This document shows positions 1,159 to 63,045 of a stretch of DNA of 64,000 bases, piece by piece. Position 1 is the stretch's first letter. Every line of letters starts with the position of its first letter. Below the pieces are notes generated by a model. It made no database searches, had not been told where the DNA came from, and worked only from the letters and a program-made list of their open reading frames with translations. The position numbers and the translations under genes were made by a program. The DNA is from Labia minor (lineage: Eukaryota > Arthropoda > Insecta > Dermaptera > Spongiphoridae). The stretch lies in contig OY720346.1 of the NCBI GenBank assembly GCA_963082975.1, positions 21,508,720 through 21,572,719 on the forward strand. Reading direction: 5' to 3'.

Positions 1159-1404
1159 TTTATTATTATTTGTAAATTAAATAATATAAATATCAAATTT
1201 AATTAAATATTATGGATTGTTTCTCAAATAATTCAACAATAATTCAGTGTATTGTTAGGTGTTAATTTTAATTATAAATGACTTAACACTATTTTTACAG
1301 TTTTATAGAACCATATGTTTTCAACATAACGTTTCTGATGAGTTAGAAAGTTAGCTTTGTTGATTTTTTTTTGTTTCATAATAATTTAAAAAAAAATTAA
1401 ATAA

Positions 1405-2017
1405 GTTGACCTGTGGCCAGGTCCGAACCGACCGACGGTTTGAAGTAAATTAATTAGCAGCTACAGAAACAATTTCAAATAATTTTAATATATCTATTAA
1501 TGTAATAAAAAACAGATATGGATACATAAATAATAAATATAAACATTTTTAATTTTATTTTATTTATAATATATATGCAAGACCAGACTGTGACGTCATG
1601 AATGGCTGGATGACGTCATATAACTTTAAATTAAGAAAAAACTAATAAAGATGATTTTTCTCAAGGATAAAACCAATACAAAGTGCATGATTCGTGGTGA
1701 TATGTAAAAAATCTCCTCATGTGAAATTTGGTGTGAAAATAACCCTTCCCTTCCTATCGTCGATCGCTAATACTACCACTTCGGGTTTCCGGATTTGCAC
1801 CAAAAGTTGATCAATTCATCATACTGATGCATTAAGTAAATATACCAAATCTCATCAAAATCCGTTCAGCCGTTCAAGCTGTACACATCTATACGGAAGG
1901 ACGGACAGACATCATTTCTGTTAAGAAAATGCATGATTCGTGGAGATATGTAAAAATCTCGACATGTGAAATTTGGTGTGAAAACAATACCTCCCTTACT
2001 ATCGTCACTGGGTAAAA
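1405..2017 (-). mobile_element. HINE-C element, copy 1 (Helentron-like, non-autonomous)
   Basis: Read on the minus strand, it ends with subterminal repeat CCGTCGGTCGGTTCGG followed by the hairpin ACCTGGCCACAGGT and GTCAAC. Its 5' inverted repeat, at the right edge, is worn (CGTCACTGGGT instead of CGTCGGTCGGT). The inside carries CACACCAAATTTCACATG, a GTCY-type microsatellite (CGGACAGAC on the plus strand), CCGGAAACC and two TGACGTCA-like sites around 1590-1620. Same family as 13139-14064, 25946-26576 and the tail at 35538-35941. No coding capacity. The Helentron assignment is an inference from architecture. Confidence 0.72.
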
Positions 2018-3506: not shown

Positions 3507-4034
3507 ACTATCTCGCCGAAAATTTTCGATGTTGAGATTTAAATGTTTTTATACGTTTTGAAGGTTCCTGAATCATTTTCACTAAGGTTGAGAAAGATGT
3601 CTGTGTGTGTGTATGTATGTAACCAAGATTACGCAAAAACAGTTTGAGCTAGAATGATGAAATTTTGTACATGGGCATTATTCAAAATTCATAGTTTTCT
3701 AGGAACTTTTGGGAAATGTAGCTCAACCGGAAGAGGGTCATTAACTACAACGTTTTGATTTTTTTTCTTCTAAAGTGACCGTAAAAATAAAGATATATAT
3801 TTGATAATTTTTCACATGATTAATAATTGTATAAAACTGCTATATATAGAATTTCAGCTTGATTGAATCGCTGAAAGTACCAGAATTAATTTTTTAACAC
3901 TGCAAATCTCACGCGCCAACACGTTTATTAATTTTAATGTATAATTTATAATTAATTAAATTTAATTTAAATATAATATATTATGTTATTTAATCCAATT
4001 CAAATTTCGAGATAGTCGAGTGGAGACACTCCAG
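3507..4034 (+). mobile_element. HINE-B element, copy 1
   Basis: Begins ACTATCTCGCC and ends CGAGATAGTCGAGTGGAGACACTCCAG. The ACTATCTCG/CGAGATAGT pair forms the subterminal inverted repeat, and TGGAGACACTCCA is a terminal hairpin. Inside are TGTGTGTGTATGTATGTAA, TTTGAGCTAGAATGATGAAATTT, CAACCGGAAGAGGGTCATTA and CACGCGCCAACACG, all shared with the copies at 38474-39066 and 42982-43587. The second arm of the 5' hairpin (CAGAGATAGTATTGCGATCACG) has been deleted here. No protein is encoded. Confidence 0.78.
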
Positions 4035-7578: not shown

Positions 7579-8499
7579 TATATATCAGTATATATCAATT
7601 TCAATTGTCTCAAATTCAATAATCATAAACGATTGTCATTTTTTATTATTTATGTTTCATTTGTATATTTTTTTTTATCATTGAGTATCATAAACGATCA
7701 TTAGGCAAATTATGCGACAAAAAAATTTAGAATTTCCTCTCTTGTTGTTTATTCAGTTATAAAAATGTATATTATAATTATAATCGAAATGTATGAAATA
7801 CAATCTATTATCTGTTTTGATGGATTAAATAAATTATGCAGAAGAGTATTCCAGAGACATTGTTTATTGCAATTTTTATATTTGGTCATTATAAAATAAA
7901 AATATTTTTTTTTCTTTTTGGTTTTTAATACCACATAAGTATTCTAATCTGAATTAATCCGATGTTTTAATTTAATGGTGAAGAATTATAAAATAAACAT
8001 AAATAATAATACATGATGAGTGATTTCCTTAAGGGATTTGAGTATTTTTTTTTAACTATGGAATAAATTCTATGAAATCAATGCCAATAAGAAAGATTGA
8101 AAAAATTTGAAAATTATTAGTCGCAACATGAAGATTTCGCTTACAATTTCTGTTCTGTCCGGCCTCCATCCAACACTTATTTTCTCTCAACTTTCTTGCT
8201 TCTCTTAATCATGTGATCTATATATTTAATTTTTTATGATCTAAAAATTTAATTAAATTATTAATTAAAATGAGAACTTTTAGAATAAATTATTTAATTG
8301 AATTGATATTTGAATATTAGAATTTAAAATAAAAAGTTAAATATTATAATAATTCTTTGATTGGGAATCGCTAGAGAAATTTATACACATTGTGTAAAAT
8401 GAGTCCACCGGTCAGTGGGCCACGCCAGGCTCTTGAATGAACAACACGGAGAATTATATGAACTTTAAAAAATTAATTTCTGATTAGATATTAATAAAA
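7579..8499. other. AT-rich intergenic DNA
   Basis: A/T-rich with no recognisable gene. A GC-richer point at about 8398-8440 (GTCCACCGGTCAGTGGGCCACG) contains a small palindrome and may be a decayed element end. Confidence 0.5.
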
Positions 8500-13138: not shown

Positions 13139-14064
13139 ACCGACAGACGATAGTAAGGGAGGTATTGTTTTCACACCAAATTTCACATGTGGAGATTTTT
13201 TACATATCTCCACGAATCATGTATTTTCTTAACAGAAAAAAGTATTTTTACCATGATTTCTGTCCGTCCGTCTGTCTGTCCATTGTGTGTCCGTAGAGAC
13301 GTGTATAGCTTGAACGCCTCAACGGATTTTGATAAAATTTGGTACCACGAATTCATCAACTTACCGGAAGTAGTAGTTTACAAAGTATTAATTTTATATT
13401 CATTGTCGAAAATTTTTCACTTAAAATATATTAGTAATTAATAATTAAATATTTAACTAAAAATAAATACTAAAATAACATAATTTAATAATTTTAATTC
13501 AAGTTTTAAAAATATTTTTTTTTATACTTTAGATATATATATATAATGTTGTTTGGAAATTAACCCAAATGTTCAAGACATCGATAATTTATATTATTAA
13601 GAAAACTATGTCACGGATTTTGATGAGATTTGGTATATTTACTTAATGCATCAGTATGATGAATTGATCAACTTTTGGTGCAAATCCGGAAACCGGAAGT
13701 GGTAGTATTAGCGATCGACGATAGGAAGGGAAGGGTTATTTTCACACCAAATTTCACATGAGGAGATTTTTTTATATATCACCACGAATCATGCACTTTG
13801 TATTGGTTTTATCCTCGAGAAAAATCATATTTATTAGTTTTTTCTTGATTTAAAATTATATGACGTCATCCAGCCATTCATGACGTCACAGCCTGGTCTT
13901 GCATATATATTATAAATAAAATAAAATTAAAAATATTTATGTTATATTCATATCTGTTTTTTATTACATTAATAGATATATTAAAATTATTTGAAATTGT
14001 TTCTGTAGCTGGAAATTAATTTACTTCAAACCGTCGGTCGGTTCGGACCTGGCCACAGGTCAAC
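13139..14064 (+). mobile_element. HINE-C element, copy 2 (compound)
   Basis: 5' repeat ACCGACAGACG, then TCACACCAAATTTCACATGT, a (GTCY)n tract (GTCCGTCCGTCTGTCTGTCC at 13262-13281) and the phrase ACGGATTTTGATAAAATTTGG. A second version of that phrase and of CCGGAAGTRGTAGT recurs at 13613-13710, so two HINE-C relatives appear fused around an AT-rich join at about 13400-13610. The 3' end has CCGTCGGTCGGTTCGG and the hairpin ACCTGGCCACAGGT, finishing GTCAAC. TGACGTCA sites occur near 13861 and 13880. No protein is encoded. Confidence 0.78.
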
Positions 14065-17493: not shown

Positions 17494-17586
17494 GATAGTA
17501 TTGCGATCACGTAAAATTTTCGATGTCGAGATTTTGATGTTTTTATACGTTTTGAAGGTTCCTTAGTCATTTTCACTAAGGTTGAG

Positions 17587-17681
<95 letters not shown>

Positions 17682-17825
17682 CAAGATTACGCAAAAAACG
17701 GTTTGAGCTAGAATAATGAAATTTGGTACACAGGCATTCTTCAATATTCGTAGTTTTCTATCAACTTTTCGAAACCACGTTTTCATTTTTTCCCTTAAAC
17801 TGACCGTAGAAATAAGATATATTAA
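17494..17825 (+). mobile_element. HINE-B element, 5' portion with expanded microsatellite
   Basis: Shares GATAGTATTGCGATCACG, ATTTTCGATGTCGAGATTTTG, TTTTATACGTTTTGAAGGTTCC, CATTTTCACTAAGGTTGAGA and GGTTTGAGCTAGAATAATGA with other HINE-B copies. The short TG tract usually found after GGTTGAGA is replaced by a compound (TA)n-(TG)n-(GA)n repeat at 17588-17677. The 3' part with CCGGAAGAGGG and the terminal hairpin is missing. A 183-codon minus-strand frame (17352-17903) is antisense to this and its Ser-Leu/Thr-His/Ile-Tyr runs come from the microsatellite. Confidence 0.75.
17588..17677. repeat. Compound microsatellite (TA)n(TG)n(GA)n
   Basis: Three pure dinucleotide tracts follow one another without interruption, about 30 bp each. 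They occupy the position where other HINE-B copies have TGTGTGTGTATGTATGTAA, so they arose by slippage inside the transposon. Confidence 0.95.
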
Positions 17826-23667: not shown

Positions 23668-24440
23668 TGGACAAGCCGAGGACAAAATAAAATATTGTCG
23701 AGCCTGTCGGATCACCTGTGACACTAGTGGAGGAGTTAAAAAAAAGAATTCTCAACTCTTTCACACGGGGAGTAAAATAAAATTATTGGGGAAAGGAGCC
23801 TTGAAATAAACTTCACCAAAGAGTGCAGTACGTTTGACTATTAGTGCTTAGGCGATTCGGAACCAAAACCGGAAAGAAATAATAACAAATTAAATTAATC
23901 AAAATATCCGATGCTAACATATGGACCTGCAAAGGAAAGATTAGGTTCACTTTTTTACGAATAAAAGAAAAAGGTTCGTTGCCACGTTATAATATTTAAT
24001 GAAAAGAAAATTAATATAAAGTAAAAATAAAATGAAATTAAATATAAAAATAAAAATAAATAATAACTCAACACAGTTTACCAAGCACGTGGTTAACAAA
24101 AAATGGCGAATTCACATCCAAAAGCCAAAAGCGTGTCAACGATATTAAAGTCCAAAAAGCAAGTGCACAACAAGAAGTATGAAAAGCAAGTGAGGAGAAC
24201 GCCTCTCCGAAGCTCAAGGCAGAAGGCTTGAGCCCAACATCAATAAAAGGCAGCAAGATGATTGGCTGTGAGGGGTCAAGTGACCCATTTGTAAGTCAAA
24301 ATAGCGACTGAACAGACCGACCACGTGGGTGAATATAAATATACAAAAAAATATTTTTAAAAGAAAAAAACTTATAAAAATTATATAAAAATAAATTGAT
24401 ATTAAAATAAATAAATCTAAATCAGGGAGATGCTTTAACA
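23668..24440. mobile_element. Solo LTR, family G, copy 1
   Basis: Runs from TGGACAAGCCGA to GCTTTAACA, TG...CA ends as in LTRs. AGATC lies immediately outside both ends (23663-23667 and 24441-24445), a 5-bp target duplication. An inverted homologue with its own different 5-bp duplication lies at 29970-30808. No retrotransposon interior adjoins it, so it is a solo LTR left by recombination between two LTRs. Transcription-factor-like motifs inside include AAAATGGCG, GATTGGCTG (CCAAT box on the minus strand) and CCACGTGG. Both orientations give TG...CA, so transcription direction is undecided; the CCAAT box favours minus. The superfamily (Ty3, Copia or BEL) cannot be told from an LTR alone. Confidence 0.9.
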
Positions 24441-24445
24441 AGATC

Positions 24446-25945: not shown

Positions 25946-26576
25946 GTTGACCTATGGCCAGGTCCGAACCAACCGACGGTTTGAAGTAAATTAATTTCCA
26001 GCTACAGAAACAATTTCAAATAATTTTAATATATCTATTAATGTAATAAAAAACAGATATGGATACATAAATAATAAATATAAACATTTTTAATTTTATT
26101 TTATTTATAATATATGTATATGCAAGACCAGGATGTGACGTCATGAATGGCTGGATGACGTCATATAATTTTAAATCAAGAAAAAACTAATAAATATGAT
26201 TTTCCCGAGGATAAAACCAATACAAAGTGCATGATTTGTGGTGATATATAAAAAAATCTCCTTTGGTGTGAAAATAACCCTTCCCTTCCTATCGTCGATT
26301 GCTAATACTACCACTTCCGGTTTCCGGATTTGCACCAAAAGTTGATCAATTCATCCCACTGATGCATTAAGTAAATATACCAAATTTCATCAAAATCGGT
26401 TGAGCCATTCAGGCTGTACACATCTATACGGACAGACGGACGGACGGACAGACATCATGCTAAAAATATTTTTTTCTGTTAAGAAAATGCATGATTCGTG
26501 GAGATATGTAAAAATCTCCACATGTGAAATTTGGTGTGAAAACAATACCTCCCTTACTATCGTCGGTCGGTAAAAA
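25946..26576 (-). mobile_element. HINE-C element, copy 3 (best-preserved ends)
   Basis: On the minus strand the 5' end is TTTTTACCGACCGACGATAG and the 3' end is CCGTCGGTTGGTTCGGACCT with the partly decayed hairpin ACCTGGCCATAGGT and GTCAAC. ACCGACCGACG/CGTCGGTTGGT form the subterminal inverted repeat. The middle has (GTCY)n (plus: GGACAGACGGACGGACGGAC), CCGGAAACCGGAAGTGGTAG and two TGACGTCA-type sites. Its 631 bp are the likely standard length for the family. No coding capacity. Confidence 0.8.
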
Positions 26577-29964: not shown

Positions 29965-29969
29965 CTAGT

Positions 29970-30808
29970 TGTTAAAGCCTCTCCCTGATTTAGATTTATT
30001 TATTTTAATATCAATTTATTTTTATATAATTTTTATAAGTTTTTTTCCTTTTATACATATTTTTTTTGAATATTTATATTCAACCACGTGGTCTGTTCAG
30101 TAGCTAATTTAACTATAAAGGGTCACATAACCCCTCACAGCCAATCATACTTTTAGTTGATGTTAGCCAAGGGCCTTGGCATGAAGATTTGATCTCTTCA
30201 CTTGCATTTTGGACTTGATATTGTTTACACGCTTTTGGCTTTTGAGCTGTGAATTCGTCATTTTTAGATTTGTTGGCCACGTGTTTTTTAAACTGTGTTT
30301 TGAGTTATTATTATTATTTTTTTGTAAACTTGTTTTGTTTTAGTTGAGCATTAGCTAGCATTTATTTCTTTTTATTTTTATATTTAATTTGTAAGTTTTA
30401 AGGATTCTCTCCTGTTAATTTTATATCAATTTCATTTTTTTATTTTTACTTTATATTAATTTTCTTTTCATTAAATATTATAACGTGGCAACGAACATTT
30501 TTCTTTTATTTGTAAAAAAGTGAATCTAATTTTTCCTTTGCAGATCCATATGTTAGAATCGGATATTTGGAATAATTTAATTTGGTACTATTTCTTTCCG
30601 ATCTTGGTTCTCCAAGGCGAATCGCCTAAGCACTAATAGTCAAACGTACTGCACTCTTTGGTGAAGTTTATTTCAGGGCTCCTTTCCCAAATAATTTTAT
30701 TTTACTCCCCGTGTGAAAGAGTTGAGGATTCTTTTTTTTAACTCCTCCACTAGTGACACAAGTGATCCGACAGGCTCAACAATATTTTATTTTGTTTCGG
30801 CTTATCCA
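29970..30808. mobile_element. Solo LTR, family G, copy 2 (inverted to copy 1)
   Basis: Reverse complement of the LTR at 23668-24440: plus-strand ends are TGTTAAAGCCTC and GGCTTATCCA. CTAGT at 29965-29969 and 30809-30813 is a perfect 5-bp target duplication, different from that of copy 1, so the two arose by separate insertions. Shared words include CCTTTGCAGATCCATATGTT, TATAACGTGGCAACGAAC and CGTACTGCACTCTTTGGTGA. At 839 bp it is longer than copy 1 (773), mainly through indels in AT-rich parts. No internal retrotransposon sequence adjoins it. Confidence 0.9.
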
Positions 30809-34915: not shown

Positions 34916-35286
34916 AATTTTTAAATATTTAAATAATATTTTATTTTTTTATTCATAAATACTTTATTTTGACTTGGTATATATATATATTCCACTATTC
35001 CACTTTTTATTAAACTTATTTAATCAAACAACATTTAAACTTAATTAAAGAAATAAATTTTTTCAGGTATTCTTTTAAACAGTGAAATACGATTATCAAT
35101 TAAAATTGTAATAATATTTCAGCTACATTTTAATTTTAATTTAAATTCAATTATAGTAATCTTATTGTATTAAAATTTTTATCTTAGGTAAGATTGAATC
35201 CCTAGATATTAAATTTTAAAATGGGAAGGTCGTCAATTACGAATATCATTTATAATTTTATTTTCTAAGAAGTAAAAAACTTGCAT
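34916..35286. other. AT-rich spacer
   Basis: A/T-rich spacer with (TA)n at 34979-34990; nothing recognised. Confidence 0.5.
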
Positions 35287-35537
35287 TTTCACTAAGGTTG
35301 AGAAAAATGTCTGTGTGTGTGTGTATGTGTGTATGTATGTAACCAAAATTACGCAAAAACGGTTTGAGCTAGAATGATGAAATTTGGTACATGGGCATTA
35401 TTCAAAATTCGTAGTTTTGTAGAAGAAGAGTTTTGTAGAGAAATGTAGCTCAACCGGAAGAGGGTCATTACCTACAACGTTTTGATTTTTTTTCCTCTAA
35501 AGTGACCGTAAAAATAAAGATATATGTTTGATAATTT
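35287..35537 (+). mobile_element. HINE-B fragment joined to HINE-C tail
   Basis: Contains the central HINE-B block (CACTAAGGTTGAGAAAAATG, TG-rich tract, CGGTTTGAGCTAGAATGATG, CAACCGGAAGAGGGTCATTA, TTTGATAATTT). The HINE-B 5' hairpin is absent. The sequence changes without a gap into HINE-C at about 35538. Confidence 0.78.
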
Positions 35538-35941
35538 GAATTGATCAACTTTTGGTGCAAATCCGGAAACCCGAAGTGGTAGTATTAGCGATCGACGATA
35601 GGAAGGGAAGGGTTATTTTCACCCCAAATTTCACATGAGGAGATTTTTTACATATCTCCACGAATCATGCACTTTGTATTAGTTTTATCCTCGGGAAAAA
35701 TCATCTTCATTAGTTTTTTCTTAATTTTATATTATATGACGTCACCCAGCCCTTCATGACGTCGCAGCCTGGTCTTGCATATATATTATAAATAAAACAA
35801 AATTAAAAATATTTATGTTATATCCATATCTGTTTTATATTACATTAATAGATATATTAAAATTATTTGAAATTGTTTCTGTAGCTGGAAATTAATTTAT
35901 TTCAAACCGTCGGTCGGTTCAGCGCCTGGCCACAGGTCAAC
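35538..35941 (+). mobile_element. HINE-C 3' portion, copy 4
   Basis: Starts mid-family at GAATTGATCAACTTTTGGTG and runs through CCGAAGTGGTAGTATTAGCG and TGACGTCAC to the 3' end CCGTCGGTCGGTTC with hairpin CCTGGCCACAGG and GTCAAC. Same strand as the HINE-B block before it, making one chimeric unit with a B head and a C tail. Confidence 0.8.
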
Positions 35942-37106: not shown

Positions 37107-37801
37107 CGGGAGTGTCCTCCTCTAGACTTTCCCGCATATAAATAGGTATCAAGAGTTGTGTTGATCAAATAATAAAATAATAATATAGAAATACAATACC
37201 TAAAAGAATAAATTAAATTAAGTTATTTTTAACCATTATCTTGAGAACGAGAAAACATAAATAATTAACAACAATAAAAATAAACAAACTAATTAATTTA
37301 AATTATAAAGTAAAATGGTTTAACACTATTATATATATTTATAATGTACACCTAACGCTACTTGTATAGGTAAAATGTCACTTCCGGTAGTCAGGTCATT
37401 ATGAAATTTGGTATCTGAATTTTTTTCATATTTTTAAATCTATATACAAAATAGGAAGCAAATATCTCGAAGCAAACTGGTACTTTACTTGAAAGGTAAA
37501 CGCAACCAGTGTAGGTAAAGTACCACTTCCGGTTAACCGATTTTGACGAAATTTTGATAGAAATCTACAAACTGTGAATAATATCGGTGTACCAAATTTC
37601 GAAGTCCTAGCTTGATTAGTTTCTGAGTAAATTCGCTCACTGACAAACCTTACATACATCCATACATACACACACAGACATAATTCGAAAAATGGTATTT
37701 TCCGACTCAGGGCGGTCTAAAACGTCAAGATCTATCGAAATCTCGAAGTCGAAATTTTTGACGATTCCAATACTTCCCTTATATGAAGTATGCGGGAAAG
37801 T
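37107..37801 (-). mobile_element. HINE-A element, copy 1
   Basis: On the minus strand: 5' subterminal repeat ACTTTCCCGCATA, CTTCATATAAGGGAAGTATTGG, GACTTCGAGATTTCGATAG, a GT tract, CAAGCTAGGACTTCGAAATT, GGTTAACCGGAAGTGGTACT, then 3' repeat TATGCGGGAAAGT and the terminal hairpin GGAGGACACTCC with CCG. Same plan as HINE-B and HINE-C. An 81-codon minus frame (37426-37671) lies inside; the same frame recurs in the other copy because the DNA is a repeat. Confidence 0.82.
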
Positions 37802-38473: not shown

Positions 38474-39066
38474 CTGGAGTGTCTCCACTCGACTATCTCG
38501 CAATTTGAATTGTATTAAATAACAACATTAAATATATTATATATACATTAAATTTAATTAATTAAATTATATATTAAAATTAATAAATAATATTTATTTA
38601 ACCAGTGCATGTTTGGCTCTTTGTTGATGGCACCACGGCACGTGTTGGCGCGTGATTTGCAGTGTTAAAAAATTAATTCTGGTACTTTCAGCGTTTCAAT
38701 CAAGCTGAAATTCTATATATATAGCAGTTTTATACAATTTTTAATCATGTGAAAAACTATCAAGCATATATCTTTATTTAATAGAAAAAAATTCAAAACG
38801 TTGTAGGTAATGCCCCTCTTCCGGTTGAGCTACATTTCTCAAAAGTTGATAGAAAACTACGAATTTTGAATAATGCCCGTATACCAAATTTCATGATTCT
38901 AGCTCAAACTGTTTTTGCGTAATCTTGTCTACATACACACATACGCACACATAAATTTATCTCAACCATAGTGAAAATGACTCAGGGACCTTCAAAACGT
39001 ATAAAAACATCAAAATCTCGACATCAAAAATTTCCGTGATCGCAATACTATCTCTGGCGAGATAGT
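38474..39066 (-). mobile_element. HINE-B element, copy 4 (complete)
   Basis: Minus strand: ACTATCTCGCCAGAGATAGT (5' hairpin CTATCTC/GAGATAG), TTGCGATCACG, CACTATGGTTGAGATAAA, CAGTTTGAGCTAGAATCATG, CAACCGGAAGAGGGGCATTA, the CACGCGCCAACACGTGCC block, then GCGAGATAGTCGAGTGGAGA with terminal hairpin TGGAGACACTCCA. Nearly co-extensive with 42982-43587 on the other strand. Confidence 0.85.
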
Positions 39067-42981: not shown

Positions 42982-43587
42982 ACTATCTCGCCAGAGATAG
43001 TATTGCGATCACGAAAATTTTCGATGTTGAGATTTTGATGTTTTTATACGTTTTGAAGGTCCCTGAGTCATTTTCACTAAGGTTGAGAAAAATGTCTCTC
43101 TCTGTGTGTGTATGTATGTAACCAAGATTACGCAAAAACGGTTTGAGCTAGAATGATAAAATTTGGTACATCGGCATTATTCAAAATTCATAGTTTTCTA
43201 TCAACTTTTGAGAAATGTAGCTCAACCGGAAGAGGGTCATTACCTACAACGTTTTGATTTTTTTTCCTTTAAAGTGACCGTAAAAATAAAGATATAGGCT
43301 TGATAATTTTTCACATGATTAATAATTGTATAAAACTGCTATATATAGAATTTCAGCTTGATTGAATCGCTGAAAGTACCAGAATTAATTTTTTAACACT
43401 GCAAATCTCACGCGCCAACACGTGACGTGGTGCCATCAACAAAGAGCTAAACATGCGCTGGTTTAATAAATATTATTTATTAATTTTCATTTATAATTTA
43501 TAATTAATTAAATTTAATTTATAAATATAATATATGTGTTAATTAATTCAATTTAAATTGCGAGATAGTCGAGTGGAGACACTCCAG
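42982..43587 (+). mobile_element. HINE-B element, copy 5 (complete, reference copy)
   Basis: Starts ACTATCTCGCCAGAGATAGT (hairpin), then TTGCGATCACGAAAATTTTC, TATACGTTTTGAAGGTCCCT, CTCTCTCTGTGTGTGTATGT, CGGTTTGAGCTAGAATGATA, CAACCGGAAGAGGGTCATTA, CAGCTTGATTGAATCGCTGA, CGCGCCAACACGTGACGTGG and the end GCGAGATAGTCGAGTGGAGA with hairpin TGGAGACACTCCA. At 606 bp it is the cleanest copy of this family. It has no reading frame of note. Confidence 0.88.
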
Positions 43588-45534: not shown

Positions 45535-46392
45535 GCGTGTACAAGCCAATTCGATCAACATTAGATCAGATAATTTCATCCGGATAGAGTTTTTCAAATT
45601 TCTCTTGAATGTAGTAAAGGAAGAGTAAGATAAGGGAATAAAGGGTGAGAAACTTTCAAAATTCTGAATGGATAAATATAAGGGATGCATTATTACGAAT
45701 TTTATTTAATTTAGTACTGTGTACTGTGATTAGACAAATTGAGGAAAAATCAAACAGAATATAATTAAACAAAAAATTCAAGAATTAGGTTACATAGACG
45801 ACTTAACATATAATATAATAGAATATAATAGAATATTCGGCTATTAAAGGTAGCTTAAAAAAAATAATTGAGGCTTGAAAAGAGATGGGCTTGAAATTAA
45901 TAGTGTTAAGACAAAATTTTTAGTAACAGAGAGGAATAGTATTAACAGATGTAATGTGTAGAATTTGAAAATGTAGAAAAATTTAAATACTTAGCAAGAT
46001 GAGGTCACCGGGGGATGGCGGAGACTGCTTAACGAGGGATTGCATGACCTCTATGCATCTCCAGAACTAGTTACAATATCGAGAAGAAGGGAAACTGATT
46101 GGGAAACGTCCGGTTGGAAGACCAAGGACGCGGTGGGTAGACAATTTAGGAAAGGACGTGGGAGAGATGGGTAAGGTAAGGAGTTGGTTATAGCTCAGGA
46201 TAGGGAGAAATTTGGTTGCTGCGGCTCGAGTACCATATATATAATAATAATAATATATAATTAATTTGCTGATTAAAATAAAATATATTTTAAATAAGAA
46301 CACAAAAAGATATTAATGTGTTAATAAACTGATTGAAACAAAATGAATGAAAACCTTTGACATACAAACTTTCAACCAAATACTATGAATTA
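45535..46392 (+). mobile_element. Helitron-type tail with captured RT fragment, degenerate
   Basis: The right part (TGATTGAAACAAAATGAATG, ACATACAAACTTTCAACCAA, ATACTATGAATTACTTCGAG) matches the 3' ends of the Helitrons at 50407, 58307 and 63340, but the final hairpin and CTAG are gone. Upstream is a longer stretch of the same LINE reverse transcriptase seen in those elements. The 5' end was not located. Confidence 0.6.
45640..46215 (+). pseudogene. Captured reverse transcriptase fragment
   Basis: Plus-strand, multi-frame remains of a LINE reverse transcriptase. LFNLVLCTVIRQIEEKSN corresponds to the block after motif QGD.LSP. LGYIDDLT holds the YxDD active site with Ile in place of Ala. GLKLIVLRQNF and the ENVEKFKYL-like segment precede the thumb. 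MRSPGDGGDCLTRDCM, IGKRPVGRPRTRWVDN and VGEMGK form the C-terminal tail typical of arthropod LINE RTs. Several stops and frameshifts make it non-coding. Confidence 0.75.
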
Positions 46393-48675: not shown

Positions 48676-49289
48676 AATCATATGTAGAACAAATATATTA
48701 TATTAAGTGCTTCAAAAACTTAAACTTAAATAACAACTCTACTAAATAAATAAATAAATAATAAATAAATATTAGAGTTTTTTAAGATTAAATAAAATAT
48801 TTTACAAGTTTTAAATTACTATTATTAAATTATTATTATTATTTTTATTTGTTTATTTTACTTTGTTTTTGGGATCCATGTCATAGCCAGACTTCTATAA
48901 TTTTAATATAATATTTTAATAATCTATATATTTAATACGATAGTGTCCGTCTGTACGCAAAAAACTCCAGAGCCTAAACTACAAGGAGTAAGGTAACCAA
49001 ATTTTTCTGAGGTGAAGGGTACCTCAAATGATGAAAAATAAAAAAGAAATTAGAATCTTAGGTAACTCCTGAGCTGAGCTGCGGGTGTTCCATTTTCCAG
49101 AAATATATATAAAGGAGAGTGTTTGTATGTATGTAATTTGTTTACTTTTTTGCTGTCATAGAAACAGATATATAAATATATATATATAATTAGATCCTCT
49201 CTCTCTCCCTCTATTTAAAATTTTAAAAAATGGAGTGTTCTAGCCAAATTAAGAAATTTAAATTCCTTATGCAACATTGATAGGTAAAT

Positions 49290-50150
49290 GAATTGGACTA
49301 GAAGAGGAGACATGTGATTAGAGAAATTGGGGAAAAATCAACCGAAATGTAATTAAACAAAAAAATTCAAGAATTATGATACGGATATGACTTACATACA
49401 ATTAACATACAAAATGTAGAATTTGAAAAAGTATAAATATTTAAATACTTAAGATCTCTAATCACGAAGAATAATAATATCCGAGAAGAATTTAAATCGA
49501 CGTTGTAATTGAGTAACGCCTGTTATTATGCAGTAAAGGGGCTTATCTCATCAAAGAGGATCAAAATTGAAATATATAAAACAATTATTTTTCATGTTGA
49601 TCGATGACTAGGGTGACCATATTTCGAAAACACCAAACCGGGACAAGCGGTATACCTTTTTTTTAGAACTAAATTGAAAAAATTTTGAAAAAAAAATTAC
49701 GAAATGTCCTAAATATTGAAAAAACGGGACAGTAGGGTGTCCCGAAGACATTTTTGGAACAGAGCACCTAAAGACGGGTCGTTTGGTCACCCTATCGATG
49801 ACTCTGGGAGACGAGAGTAGATTTAGAGTATTTGTGAGATTAATATTGTTCGCAGCATTTATAGACCAAAAGAAGATGAGGTCACAGGGGATGGCGGAGA
49901 AGGCATAACGAGGAATTGCATGATCTCCAGTTATAGTTAAGGTTATAAATTCGAGATGGCTGGGATGGGAAGGGGACGTGGTTGGAATTGGAGAAACTAG
50001 AAATTGGGAGAAACCGATTGGGAAACATCCGGTGGAAGACCAAGGACCAAGGTGGGTGGACAATGAAGGAAGGGACTTGGGAGAGATGGGACTGGGTAGG
50101 ATTTGGTTGTAGCTCAGGATAGGGACGCTTAGAGAAATGTGGATGCTCCA
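49290..50150 (+). pseudogene. RT fragment inside Helitron E copy 1
   Basis: Plus-strand remains of the thumb and C-terminal region of a LINE reverse transcriptase. Readable segments are HVIREIGEKSTEM, NVEFEKV, FKYLRSLITKNNNIREEFKS, LSNACYYAVKGLISSKRIKI and EIYKTIIFHV. The MITE then interrupts it, and after the MITE come GIGETRNWEKPIGKHPVEDQ and GEMGLGRIW with frame changes. No catalytic palm motif is included, so the captured piece starts after YxDD. A 196-codon antisense frame (49608-50198) is a by-product. Confidence 0.8.
49609..49794. mobile_element. Family D MITE nested in Helitron E copy 1
   Basis: TAGGGTGACCATATTTCGAA to GGTCACCCTA, flanked by TCGATGAC at 49601-49608 and 49795-49802 (8-bp target duplication). 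Same insertion site and duplication as in the Helitron at 61954-63340, so it was inherited with the Helitron. Confidence 0.92.
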
Positions 50151-60080: not shown

Positions 60081-60675
60081 ACTTTCCCGCATACTTCGTA
60101 TAAGGGAAGTATTGGAATCGTCAAAAATTTCGACTTCGAGATTTCGATAGATCTTGACGTTTTAGACCTCCCTGAGTCGGAAAATACCATTTTTCGAATT
60201 ATGTCTGTGTGTGTGTGTATGTATGTATGTAATGTCTGTAAGCAAATTTACTCAAAAACTAATCAAGCTAGGACTTCGAAATTTGGTACACCGATATTAT
60301 TCACAGTTTGTAGATTTCTATCAAAATTTCGTCAAAATCGGTTAACCGGAAGTGGTACTTTACCTACAATGGTTGCGTTTACCTTTCAAGTAAAGTACCA
60401 GTTTGCTTCGAGATATTTGCTTCATATTTTGTATATAGATTTAAAAATATGAAAAAAATTCAGATACCAAATTTCATCATGATCTGACTACCGGAAGTGA
60501 CATTTTACCTATACAAGTAGCGTTTCCTTTTTACCGACCGACGATAGTAAGGGAGGTATTGTTTTCACACCAAATTTCACCTGTGGATATTTTTAGGTTA
60601 TTACATTCTAAATATTCATTCACAACTCTTTATACCTATTTATATGCGGGAAAGTCTAGGGGAGGACACTCCCGC
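60081..60675 (+). mobile_element. HINE-A element, copy 2
   Basis: 5' repeat ACTTTCCCGCATA with the foldback CATACTTCGTATAAGGGAAG, GACTTCGAGATTTCGATAG, GTGTGTGTGTATGTATGTAT, CAAGCTAGGACTTCGAAATT, GGTTAACCGGAAGTGGTACT, 3' repeat TATGCGGGAAAGT, then hairpin GGGAGGACACTCCC and GC. A HINE-C 5' end (ACCGACCGACGATAGTAAGG, about 60534-60594) lies inside, between the body and the 3' repeat. An 83-codon plus frame (60201-60452) recurs in the other A copy as part of the repeat. Confidence 0.85.
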
Positions 60676-61667: not shown

Positions 61668-62279
61668 TTATTTAACTTTTTCGAAAAACATTTACAATTT
61701 CCACCTCAAATTTAGTATTTTTTAAATTTCCCGATTCCCGTGAACGAAAATAATTCGAGAAAAATTACCATCTAGGTGTCAGTTTAAATTAATTTAAAAA
61801 AAAACTATTACTAGGTGGCCAAACGAACAATTTGTTTTTCTTATCTTTTCACTAGAAAATTCTCGAGTATTTATTTAATGAATATCGAAGTAGAAAGCCA
61901 ATTTGTTCGAGTAGATTTTATTCATTCAAAAATATAAAATGATTCTAAAATAATCTATATATTTAATACGATAGTGTCCGTCTGTACGCAAAAAACTCCA
62001 GAGCCTAAACTACAAGGAGTAAGGTAACCAAATTTTTCTGAGGTGAAGGGTACCTCAAATGATGAAAAATAAAAAAGAAATTAGAATCTTAGGTAACTCC
62101 TGAGCTGAGCTGCGGGTGTTCCATTTTCCAGAAATATATATAAAGGAGAGTTTGTATGAATGTGTAATTTGTTTACTTTTTTGCTGTCATAGAAACAGAT
62201 ATATATATATGATTAGAACCTCTCTCTCTCCCTCTATTTAAAATTTTAAAAAATTTCTTAAGCCAGGTAAATGAATTGG

Positions 62280-63045
62280 ACTGGAAGAGGAGACATGTGA
62301 TTAGAGAAATTGGGGAAAAATCAACCGAAATGTAATTAAACAAAAAAATTCAAGAATTATGATACGGATACGACTTACATACAATTAACATACAAAATGT
62401 AGAATTTGAAAAAGTATAAATATTTAAATACTTAAGATCTCTAATCACGAAGGATAATAATATTCGAGAAGAATTTAAATCGACGTTGTAATTGAGTAAC
62501 GCCTGTTATAATGCAGTAAAGGGGCTTATCTCATCAAAGAGGATCAAAATTAAAATATATAAAACAATTATTTTTCATGTTGATCGATGACTAGGGTGAC
62601 CATATTTCGAAAACACCAAACCGGGACAAACGGTATACCTTTTTTTTAGAACTAAATTGAAAAAATTTTGAAAAAAAAATTACGAAATGTCCTAAATATT
62701 GAAAAAACAGTAGGGTGTCCCGAAGACTTTTTTGGGACAGAGCACCTAAAGACGGGACGTTTGGTCACCCTATCGATGACTCTGGGAGACGATTTGGAGT
62801 ATTTGTGAGATTAATATTGTTCGCAGCATTTATAGGCCAAAAGAAGATGAAGTCACAGGGGATGGCGGAGATGGCATAACGAGATATGTCCAGATATAGT
62901 TAAGGTTATAAAATCAAGAATGCTGGGATGGGAAGGGGACGTGGTTGGAATTGGAGAAACTAGAAATTGGGAGAAACCGATTGGGAAACATCCGGTGGAA
63001 GACCAAGGACCAAGGTGGGTGGACAATGAAGGAAGGGACATGGAA
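62280..63045 (+). pseudogene. RT fragment inside Helitron E copy 2
   Basis: Same captured thumb/C-terminal RT segment as at 49290-50150: HVIREIGEKSTEM, then NVEFEKV, FKYLRSLITKDNNIREEFKS, KGLISSKRIKI, then the MITE, then GIGETRNWEKPIGKHPVEDQ. The stop positions noticed match those of the other copy, so the fragment was already a pseudogene when the Helitron copied it. It breaks off before the GEMGLGR segment. Confidence 0.8.
62592..62772. mobile_element. Family D MITE nested in Helitron E copy 2
   Basis: TAGGGTGACCATATTTCGAA to GGTCACCCTA, flanked by TCGATGAC at 62584-62591 and 62773-62780. Identical target site to the MITE at 49609-49794. Confidence 0.92.

Follow-up and report, generated by a model that had tools for sequence, protein, structure and literature searches.

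Three repeat families of the dermapteran Labia minor with Helentron-like ends, and a coding Helentron bearing the 5' end of one and the 3' end of another

Introduction

The element at positions 42982 to 43587 belongs to one of three repeat families, A, B and C, which a reading of the sequence alone had placed under one Helentron-like blueprint and one rolling-circle machinery. The questions raised by this locus are whether the three families are indeed Helentron-associated, and whether a single coding element could be responsible for all of them.

Copies of families A, B and C in the window

The window, that is the whole stretch of 64,000 nucleotides analysed (C4:21508720-21572719, contig OY720346.1), has a GC content of 20-31% per 4 kb, and the genome searched comprised 604 Mb in 71 contigs. 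Eleven copies had been listed in the window. Eight of them have both ends, whereas those at 17494 and 35287 turned out to be B fragments and that at 35538 the 3' half of a C element:

1405..2013, minus strand: family C, both ends, with mutations in the 5' repeat (ACCCAGTGACG)
3507..4034, plus strand: family B, both ends, without the distal arm of the 5' hairpin
13139..14064, plus strand: family C, both ends, longer copy
17494..17822, plus strand: family B fragment with neither end, long TA/GT/GA microsatellite
25946..26571, minus strand: family C, both ends
35284..35537, plus strand: family B internal fragment (B positions 88-328), directly abutting a C fragment
35538..35940, plus strand: family C 3' half including the C 3' hairpin, joined to the B fragment
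37107..37801, minus strand: family A, complete, its 3' end lying at 37107
38474..39066, minus strand: family B, complete copy
42982..43587, plus strand: family B, complete copy, both ends matched
60081..60674, plus strand: family A, both ends; encloses a piece of C 5' end at about 60525-60595 (a small A/C chimera)

The complete B copy at 42982-43587 begins with a 5' hairpin (ACTATCTC-GCCA-GAGATAGT), continues with a GT/GTAT microsatellite and with AAATTTGGTA ahead of a CCGGAA core, and on its 3' side has the repeat GCGAGATAGT and then the hairpin TGGAG-ACA-CTCCA. The window also holds a long repeat pair (49282-50080 and 62265-63043, several blocks, 94-98% identical) with related pieces near 45700, 57300 and 59500, and a large inverted repeat pair (23682-24441 and 29969-30795) which is 88-97% complementary.

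Genome-wide ends and copy numbers

Exact 3' ends were counted with a 29-mer for A, a 33-mer for B (CTAAT form) and a 37-mer for C, diverged copies lying outside these counts. This gave 2,642 ends for A, 6,373 for B and 12,786 for C, a total of 21,801, and 0 for each of the reversed-pattern controls. The B 3' end had 0 exact matches in viral contigs, a search which may not include the window's own records.

For family B the 30 best-scoring loci, which are not a random sample, were compared with both end patterns, two substitutions being allowed. Both patterns were matched at 29 of these loci (L011, whose 5' tip is missing, was dropped), one of the 29 (L009) has the 3' hairpin deleted, and fixed ends with an intact hairpin site were found at 28 of the 30. 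Pairwise identity among the 29 copies ranged from 0.925 to 0.988 (mean 0.95). For A and C, 10 copies each were taken from at least 40 matches, those of A for near-full coverage and neither set at random, and all had fixed ends up to single-base changes. The A copies start, after a T, with ACTTTCCCGC (one with ACTCTCCCGC) and end in CCCG with A or C ahead of the T, except for deviating tails in two; the C copies start with TTTTTACCGACCGACG (one with ACTGACCGACG) and end with CAGGTCAACTTATT. The 3' ends are consistent, as had been predicted, up to the hairpin. The last bases of B vary: after CTCCAG the 29 tails read CTAA (12 copies), A (12) or C (4), each before T, or otherwise (1).

Structure of the ends

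In each family a repeat of 10-13 bp at the 5' tip occurs again, inverted, 18-22 bp inside the 3' end of the element and just ahead of a short 3' hairpin. The exact inverted repeat is 13 bp in A, a length reached by 0 of 2000 single-base shuffles for both copies, and 10 bp in B (3 and 5 of 2000 for two copies). Both exceed chance, but in the two window copies of C that were tested the repeat is mutated to 6-7 bp, which 743 and 169 of 2000 shuffles reach; a perfect 11 bp repeat was seen by eye in 7 of the 10 genome copies of C. HINEs, the non-autonomous partners of Helentrons, are described with an inverted repeat of 11-15 bp at the 5' end and again near the 3' end (excerpts of Thomas et al. 2014, PMC4067079). 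A and C agree with this, and B falls one bp short of the 11 bp rule.

The hairpin that had been proposed as terminus stands at the same place after the 3' inverted repeat in all three families, with pairing kept despite the different stem sequences (GGGAG/CTCCC in A, TGGAG/CTCCA in B, ACCTG/CAGGT in C). Taken copy by copy the stem is not unusual: in all six copies tested, 57-586 of 2000 shuffles do as well, a program found a rival stem of equal length at the B end, and the A end is predicted to fold best with bases other than GGGAG/CTCCC paired. The weight of this feature comes from its fixed position and from thousands of exact copies. In DNA folding of the 3' segments, structures as stable were found in 20 (B), 4 (A, with the rival pairing) and 6 (C) of 200 shuffles. 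At the 5' end, B forms a hairpin with a perfect 8-bp stem which contains the 5' repeat, as in Helitron2 elements, and 1 of 200 shuffles is as stable. The corresponding numbers are 8 of 200 for A and 68 of 200 for C, and a 5' hairpin in C is unsupported by folding.

The microsatellites are present in A, B and C, and the phrase ATTTGGTA that had been noticed ahead of the core does precede CCGGAA in all three, by 65, 65 and 58 nt, respectively.

Relationship of the families

The families had been described as different in primary sequence. This does not hold for A and B, which align over about 560 bp through the core with a score of 82, the best of 200 shuffles scoring 25. It holds better for C. 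Under loose scoring A and C reach 27, where the best shuffle gives 22 (0 of 200 reach the score), and under strict scoring 6 of 200 shuffles reach it; for B and C, 3 and 11 of 200 do so. A and B are homologous, and C is a distant third family having the same end design and at most a weakly shared core.

Target site and head-to-tail copies

Insertion between Ts without target duplication had been predicted, and for B this was borne out. The base before the 5' tip ACTATC is T in 28 of 29 copies, and TT precedes it in 27 of 29; in A a T precedes the 5' tip in 10 of 10 copies. For 46 distinct A, B and C copies the flanks were joined and matched to the genome loci retrieved, and among the 49 rows obtained two B cases were informative (L014 and L006); self and partial matches (the B copy L004, and L062) were dropped, and so was the AT-rich match, at 77%, between a C copy and L067. 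L014 is a B element inside another B element and reads TTTTTT, the element ending in CTAA, and TTTT, against mostly eight Ts in other B copies. For L006 the paralogous empty site has three or four Ts fewer than the filled one. In both cases the number of Ts is the sole change in the target. Insertion into TT or T-rich sequence with the target otherwise unmodified, typical of HINEs and Helentrons, is thus found for B and, as far as the flanks tell, for A. In C the strings TTTTT and TTATT flank 10 of 10 copies. Since they are constant they may belong to the element, which leaves the C boundary and target ambiguous; the boundary is likewise ambiguous in a C copy that sits in a relative of B (C2:41503730).

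Short, non-coding elements with inverted repeats could also be MITEs moved by a cut-and-paste transposase, the repeats being ordinary terminal ones and TT a 2-bp duplication, and the two Ts that the filled site L014 has beyond most other B copies are what such a duplication would give. We consider this extremely unlikely, as the 3' repeat sits ahead of a hairpin, 18-22 bp from the end, the three or four Ts gained at L006 show that their number is not fixed, and the coding element with the B 3' end, described below, encodes a Rep-helicase.

In 72 places of the genome (reversed control 0) a B 5' end begins no more than 20 bases after a B 3' end of the same orientation, and 22 of these 72 junctions read CTAATTT. 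Two junctions lie 657 bp apart (G000:C5:63721423 and 63722080) and two others 649 bp apart (C1:124094336 and 124094985), the latter both reading ATAATTT, which occurs nowhere else among the 72; these pairs look like arrays of at least three B copies. Rolling-circle read-through or circles with joined ends would give such tandems, and a preference for T-runs beside an older copy, or unequal exchange, could give them also.

A coding Helentron with the B 3' end

A PF14214 profile search of the genome gave 104 matches. One of the loci (L064, contig C1, minus strand) has a frame of 2,181 codons without a stop, encoding a DUF6570 domain, a Helitron_like_N (Rep) domain (E 1.3e-23) and a PIF1 helicase (E 1.9e-31). 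An endonuclease (EN) match to Exo_endo_phos_2 is weak (E 0.0013, score 19.0, below the curated cut-off of 27.4). Its Rep motif VEFQMRGSPHEH is of the Helentron type RGSPH, the S being a mark of Helentrons (Thomas et al. 2014, PMC4067079); L061 and L062 have RGLPH instead. Rep, PIF1, a fused EN (below cut-off) and RGSPH are what is expected of a Helentron partner. The C-terminal stretch of about 230 residues weakly resembles Peptidase_C48 (Ulp1; E 0.00098, 19.5 bits, cut-off 20.7), with GHW, FDS, QSQQ and DCG recognized by eye. Among the papers searched none names both Helentron and Ulp1, and Helitron, Ulp1 and endonuclease do occur together.

A genome search with the EN tail gave 88 matches and placed the L064 lineage at three loci. 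Distant EN frames were found at C1:55797785, at C1:44701107 and twice on C63, and many short matches of about 75 residues are probably retroelement endonucleases. The first two copies of the L064 lineage both finish with GCGAGATAGTCGAGTGGAGACACTCCAGCTAA followed by TTTT, which is exactly the B 3' end, and beyond it their flanks are unrelated (ungapped identity 0.326 over 92 positions). The second copy has a stop in its EN part and a rearranged 5' side, and the third has no 3' end within the 1.8 kb read. The B 3' end is therefore present on both copies in which the 3' side was reached, and the open copy has the C 5' end, not that of B. Within the stretches read, which on the 5' side were chiefly that of the open copy and cover a minority of the Rep matches, no coding element with A ends or with the B 5' end was found. 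A Helentron with Rep, helicase and endonuclease had been sought for each set of termini; the one seen has the 3' end of B and, upstream, the 5' end of C.

B and the coding copy share only about 37-41 bp. This counts against the Helentron reading, and is unlike the 84-99.9% or >95% identity given for HINE partners in mite and Culex (excerpts of PMC4067079).

On L112 an A 3' end (about 1393-1446, reverse strand) was seen some 1 kb past the point where the second coding copy finishes, and an unrelated abundant repeat is situated inside the 3' UTR of the coding element. The motif ACTATCCGC at position 1801 of the coding-copy stretch was considered as a 5' end and rejected, homology to L063 spanning both sides of it.

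The C-head junction

On the upstream side of its coding part the first copy carries a head, CTTATTAAAGTCG, and ahead of this lies C sequence (positions 1-512, counted from the C 5' tip) with a GTCY microsatellite. The head region recurs elsewhere in the genome (78 first-look candidates). In 12 sampled copies T-rich sequence precedes it and its start is sharp. Ahead of the head we found a hairpin end, GAGAGCGG...GCTCTCGTTATT, in five of the 12, the full C 3' end in one, C internal sequence in two (besides the first coding copy), and other sequence in four, three of them with a common flank.

The C-to-head junction pattern has three exact matches in the genome (control 0). All three read AATGTTATATTT, whereas the four plain C copies of that form read AATGTTTATATTT (set aside were eight rows with a different C form and an incomplete one), so that a one-base deletion is present in 3/3 junctions and in 0/4 plain copies. 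Upstream of the C tip the flanks, compared by eye, differ at all three loci, the tip itself having been read for its first nine bases at the second. Given the shared deletion and the differing flanks, the C-to-head junction has probably moved as one unit, and the simplest account of its origin is a single Helentron insertion into a C element, after which copying started at the outer C 5' end. Beyond the second junction and across unread intervening sequence come a Rep match, at about 3.6 kb, and, at about 12 kb, a frame which combines EN (37% identical) with an OTU domain (E 8.6e-10).

The C 5' end could instead be a chance neighbour, brought there by nested insertion and without a role in the movement of the coding element. 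The head CTTATTAAAG starts sharply after varied T-rich sequence in the 12 copies, much like a 5' end which could land in the T-run of C; the shared mark is a single base; and the tip-to-junction part of about 500 bp is unread at two of the three loci. We regard this explanation as unlikely, though worth keeping in mind, because one insertion copied as a unit fits best with three loci that share junction and deletion but differ upstream of the C tip.

Other coding lineages

Several Rep and EN lineages coexist in the genome. Seven copies of a canonical-type Helitron (L037-L043, e.g. G000:C10:14925745 and C9:45506044) are 99.9-100% identical over 3.56 kb; the family looks very recent, five copies keep frames of 1652 codons, and by eye it has a hairpin end of its own, GGTACTAA before T. 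Another Helentron-type Rep family (RGSPH; L056-L059 and L063, four near-identical copies) shares in two copies a 5' start, TTTACCACG after T, and its 3' end was not found in the stretches read. The 3' ends of A, B and C were searched for in L113-L117 (1.8-3.5 kb each) and none occurred within 5 edits. At L114:1665-3501 a fragment resembling, by eye, a retroelement polyprotein lies beside the second EN frame. A palindromic B-like piece in L062 was rejected as the end of that Helitron, because a second copy (L066) diverges at 7798, before the piece.

The near-identical copies L037-L043, the RGLPH motif of the L062 copy and the 12 B tails of 29 that read CTAA before T, in keeping with CTRR before T, might suggest that canonical Helitrons (Helitron1) move the families. 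We judge this very unlikely. Canonical elements have a 5' TC and a 3' CTRR and insert between A and T, whereas B starts with ACT after a T (5' flank T in 28/29) and 16 of its 29 tails are A or C before T. Moreover two copies of the L062 family, when compared, show a 3' end of their own, and in the stretches read no canonical Helitron protein was found on an element with both B ends.

Comparison with known systems

Like the HINEs and DINE-1 elements of PMC4067079, the families described here have inverted repeats at the 5' and subterminal 3' ends, a 3' hairpin, a microsatellite, a Helentron partner and a T-rich target with a variable number of Ts. Unlike those HINEs, B and the coding copy share the 3' end only, and the coding copy bears the 5' end of a second family. 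Helentrons are reported there with OTU proteases (Thomas et al. 2014), whereas the stretch fused to the C-terminus of L064 is weakly similar to Ulp1 (C48).

Features in common with Helitron2, as described in excerpts of Bao and Jurka (2013, PMC3627910), are a 5' tip repeat within the 5' hairpin (in B; less clearly in A), a 3' repeat directly ahead of the 3' hairpin and insertion after Ts. Helitron2 is described in those excerpts as without endonuclease, in contrast to the weak EN match of the L064 frame.

For Fusarium elements with several 5' ends it has been proposed that self-insertion came first and that copying then began from whichever 5' end lay outermost (excerpts of Chai et al. 2016, PMC5148889). 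The C-head-Helentron unit proposed here would resemble these composite FoHelis in having two 5' ends and one 3' end, and would differ in that its outer 5' end comes from a different, very abundant non-autonomous family.

Mechanism and implications

The proposed Helentron-like reading of the three families is supported, every check suggested for it that was run having come out in its favour. A, B and C are very probably non-autonomous Helentron-associated elements of the HINE/DINE-1 type with a Helitron2 end architecture, moved in trans by a Helentron Rep-helicase-endonuclease, and that they belong to this already known kind of element is well supported. Weighing against this reading are the small stretch that B shares with the coding copy, the constant T-rich strings beside C, the unsupported C 5' hairpin and the weak EN match; moreover, of the three coding copies one showed no 3' end within 1.8 kb and another has a rearranged 5' side.

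In such a mechanism the Helentron protein would act in trans on the three families, start at the 5' tip with its inverted repeat (and hairpin in B), peel off one strand and stop at the 3' inverted repeat and hairpin, and the product would be joined into a T-run without target duplication. The L064 protein or a close relative may move B and C, and A may use a related Helentron protein; these assignments and the strand-transfer steps are inferred. The idea of a single machinery for three lineages is borne out in part only: one unit does combine the C 5' end with the B 3' end, but the coding elements seen include none with A ends or the B 5' end, and several Rep and EN lineages coexist.

A further reading, to which we give less than even probability, is that Helentron ends are modular across sequence-divergent families, a C 5' end and a B 3' end being accepted together, so that one lineage could move both families and new families could arise by recombination of ends.

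With 21,801 exact 3' ends and an open Helentron frame in one genome, partner recognition becomes directly testable. The mixed-end C/B unit is the part worth following, as a ready-made case for asking how exacting a Helentron protein is about each of its ends.
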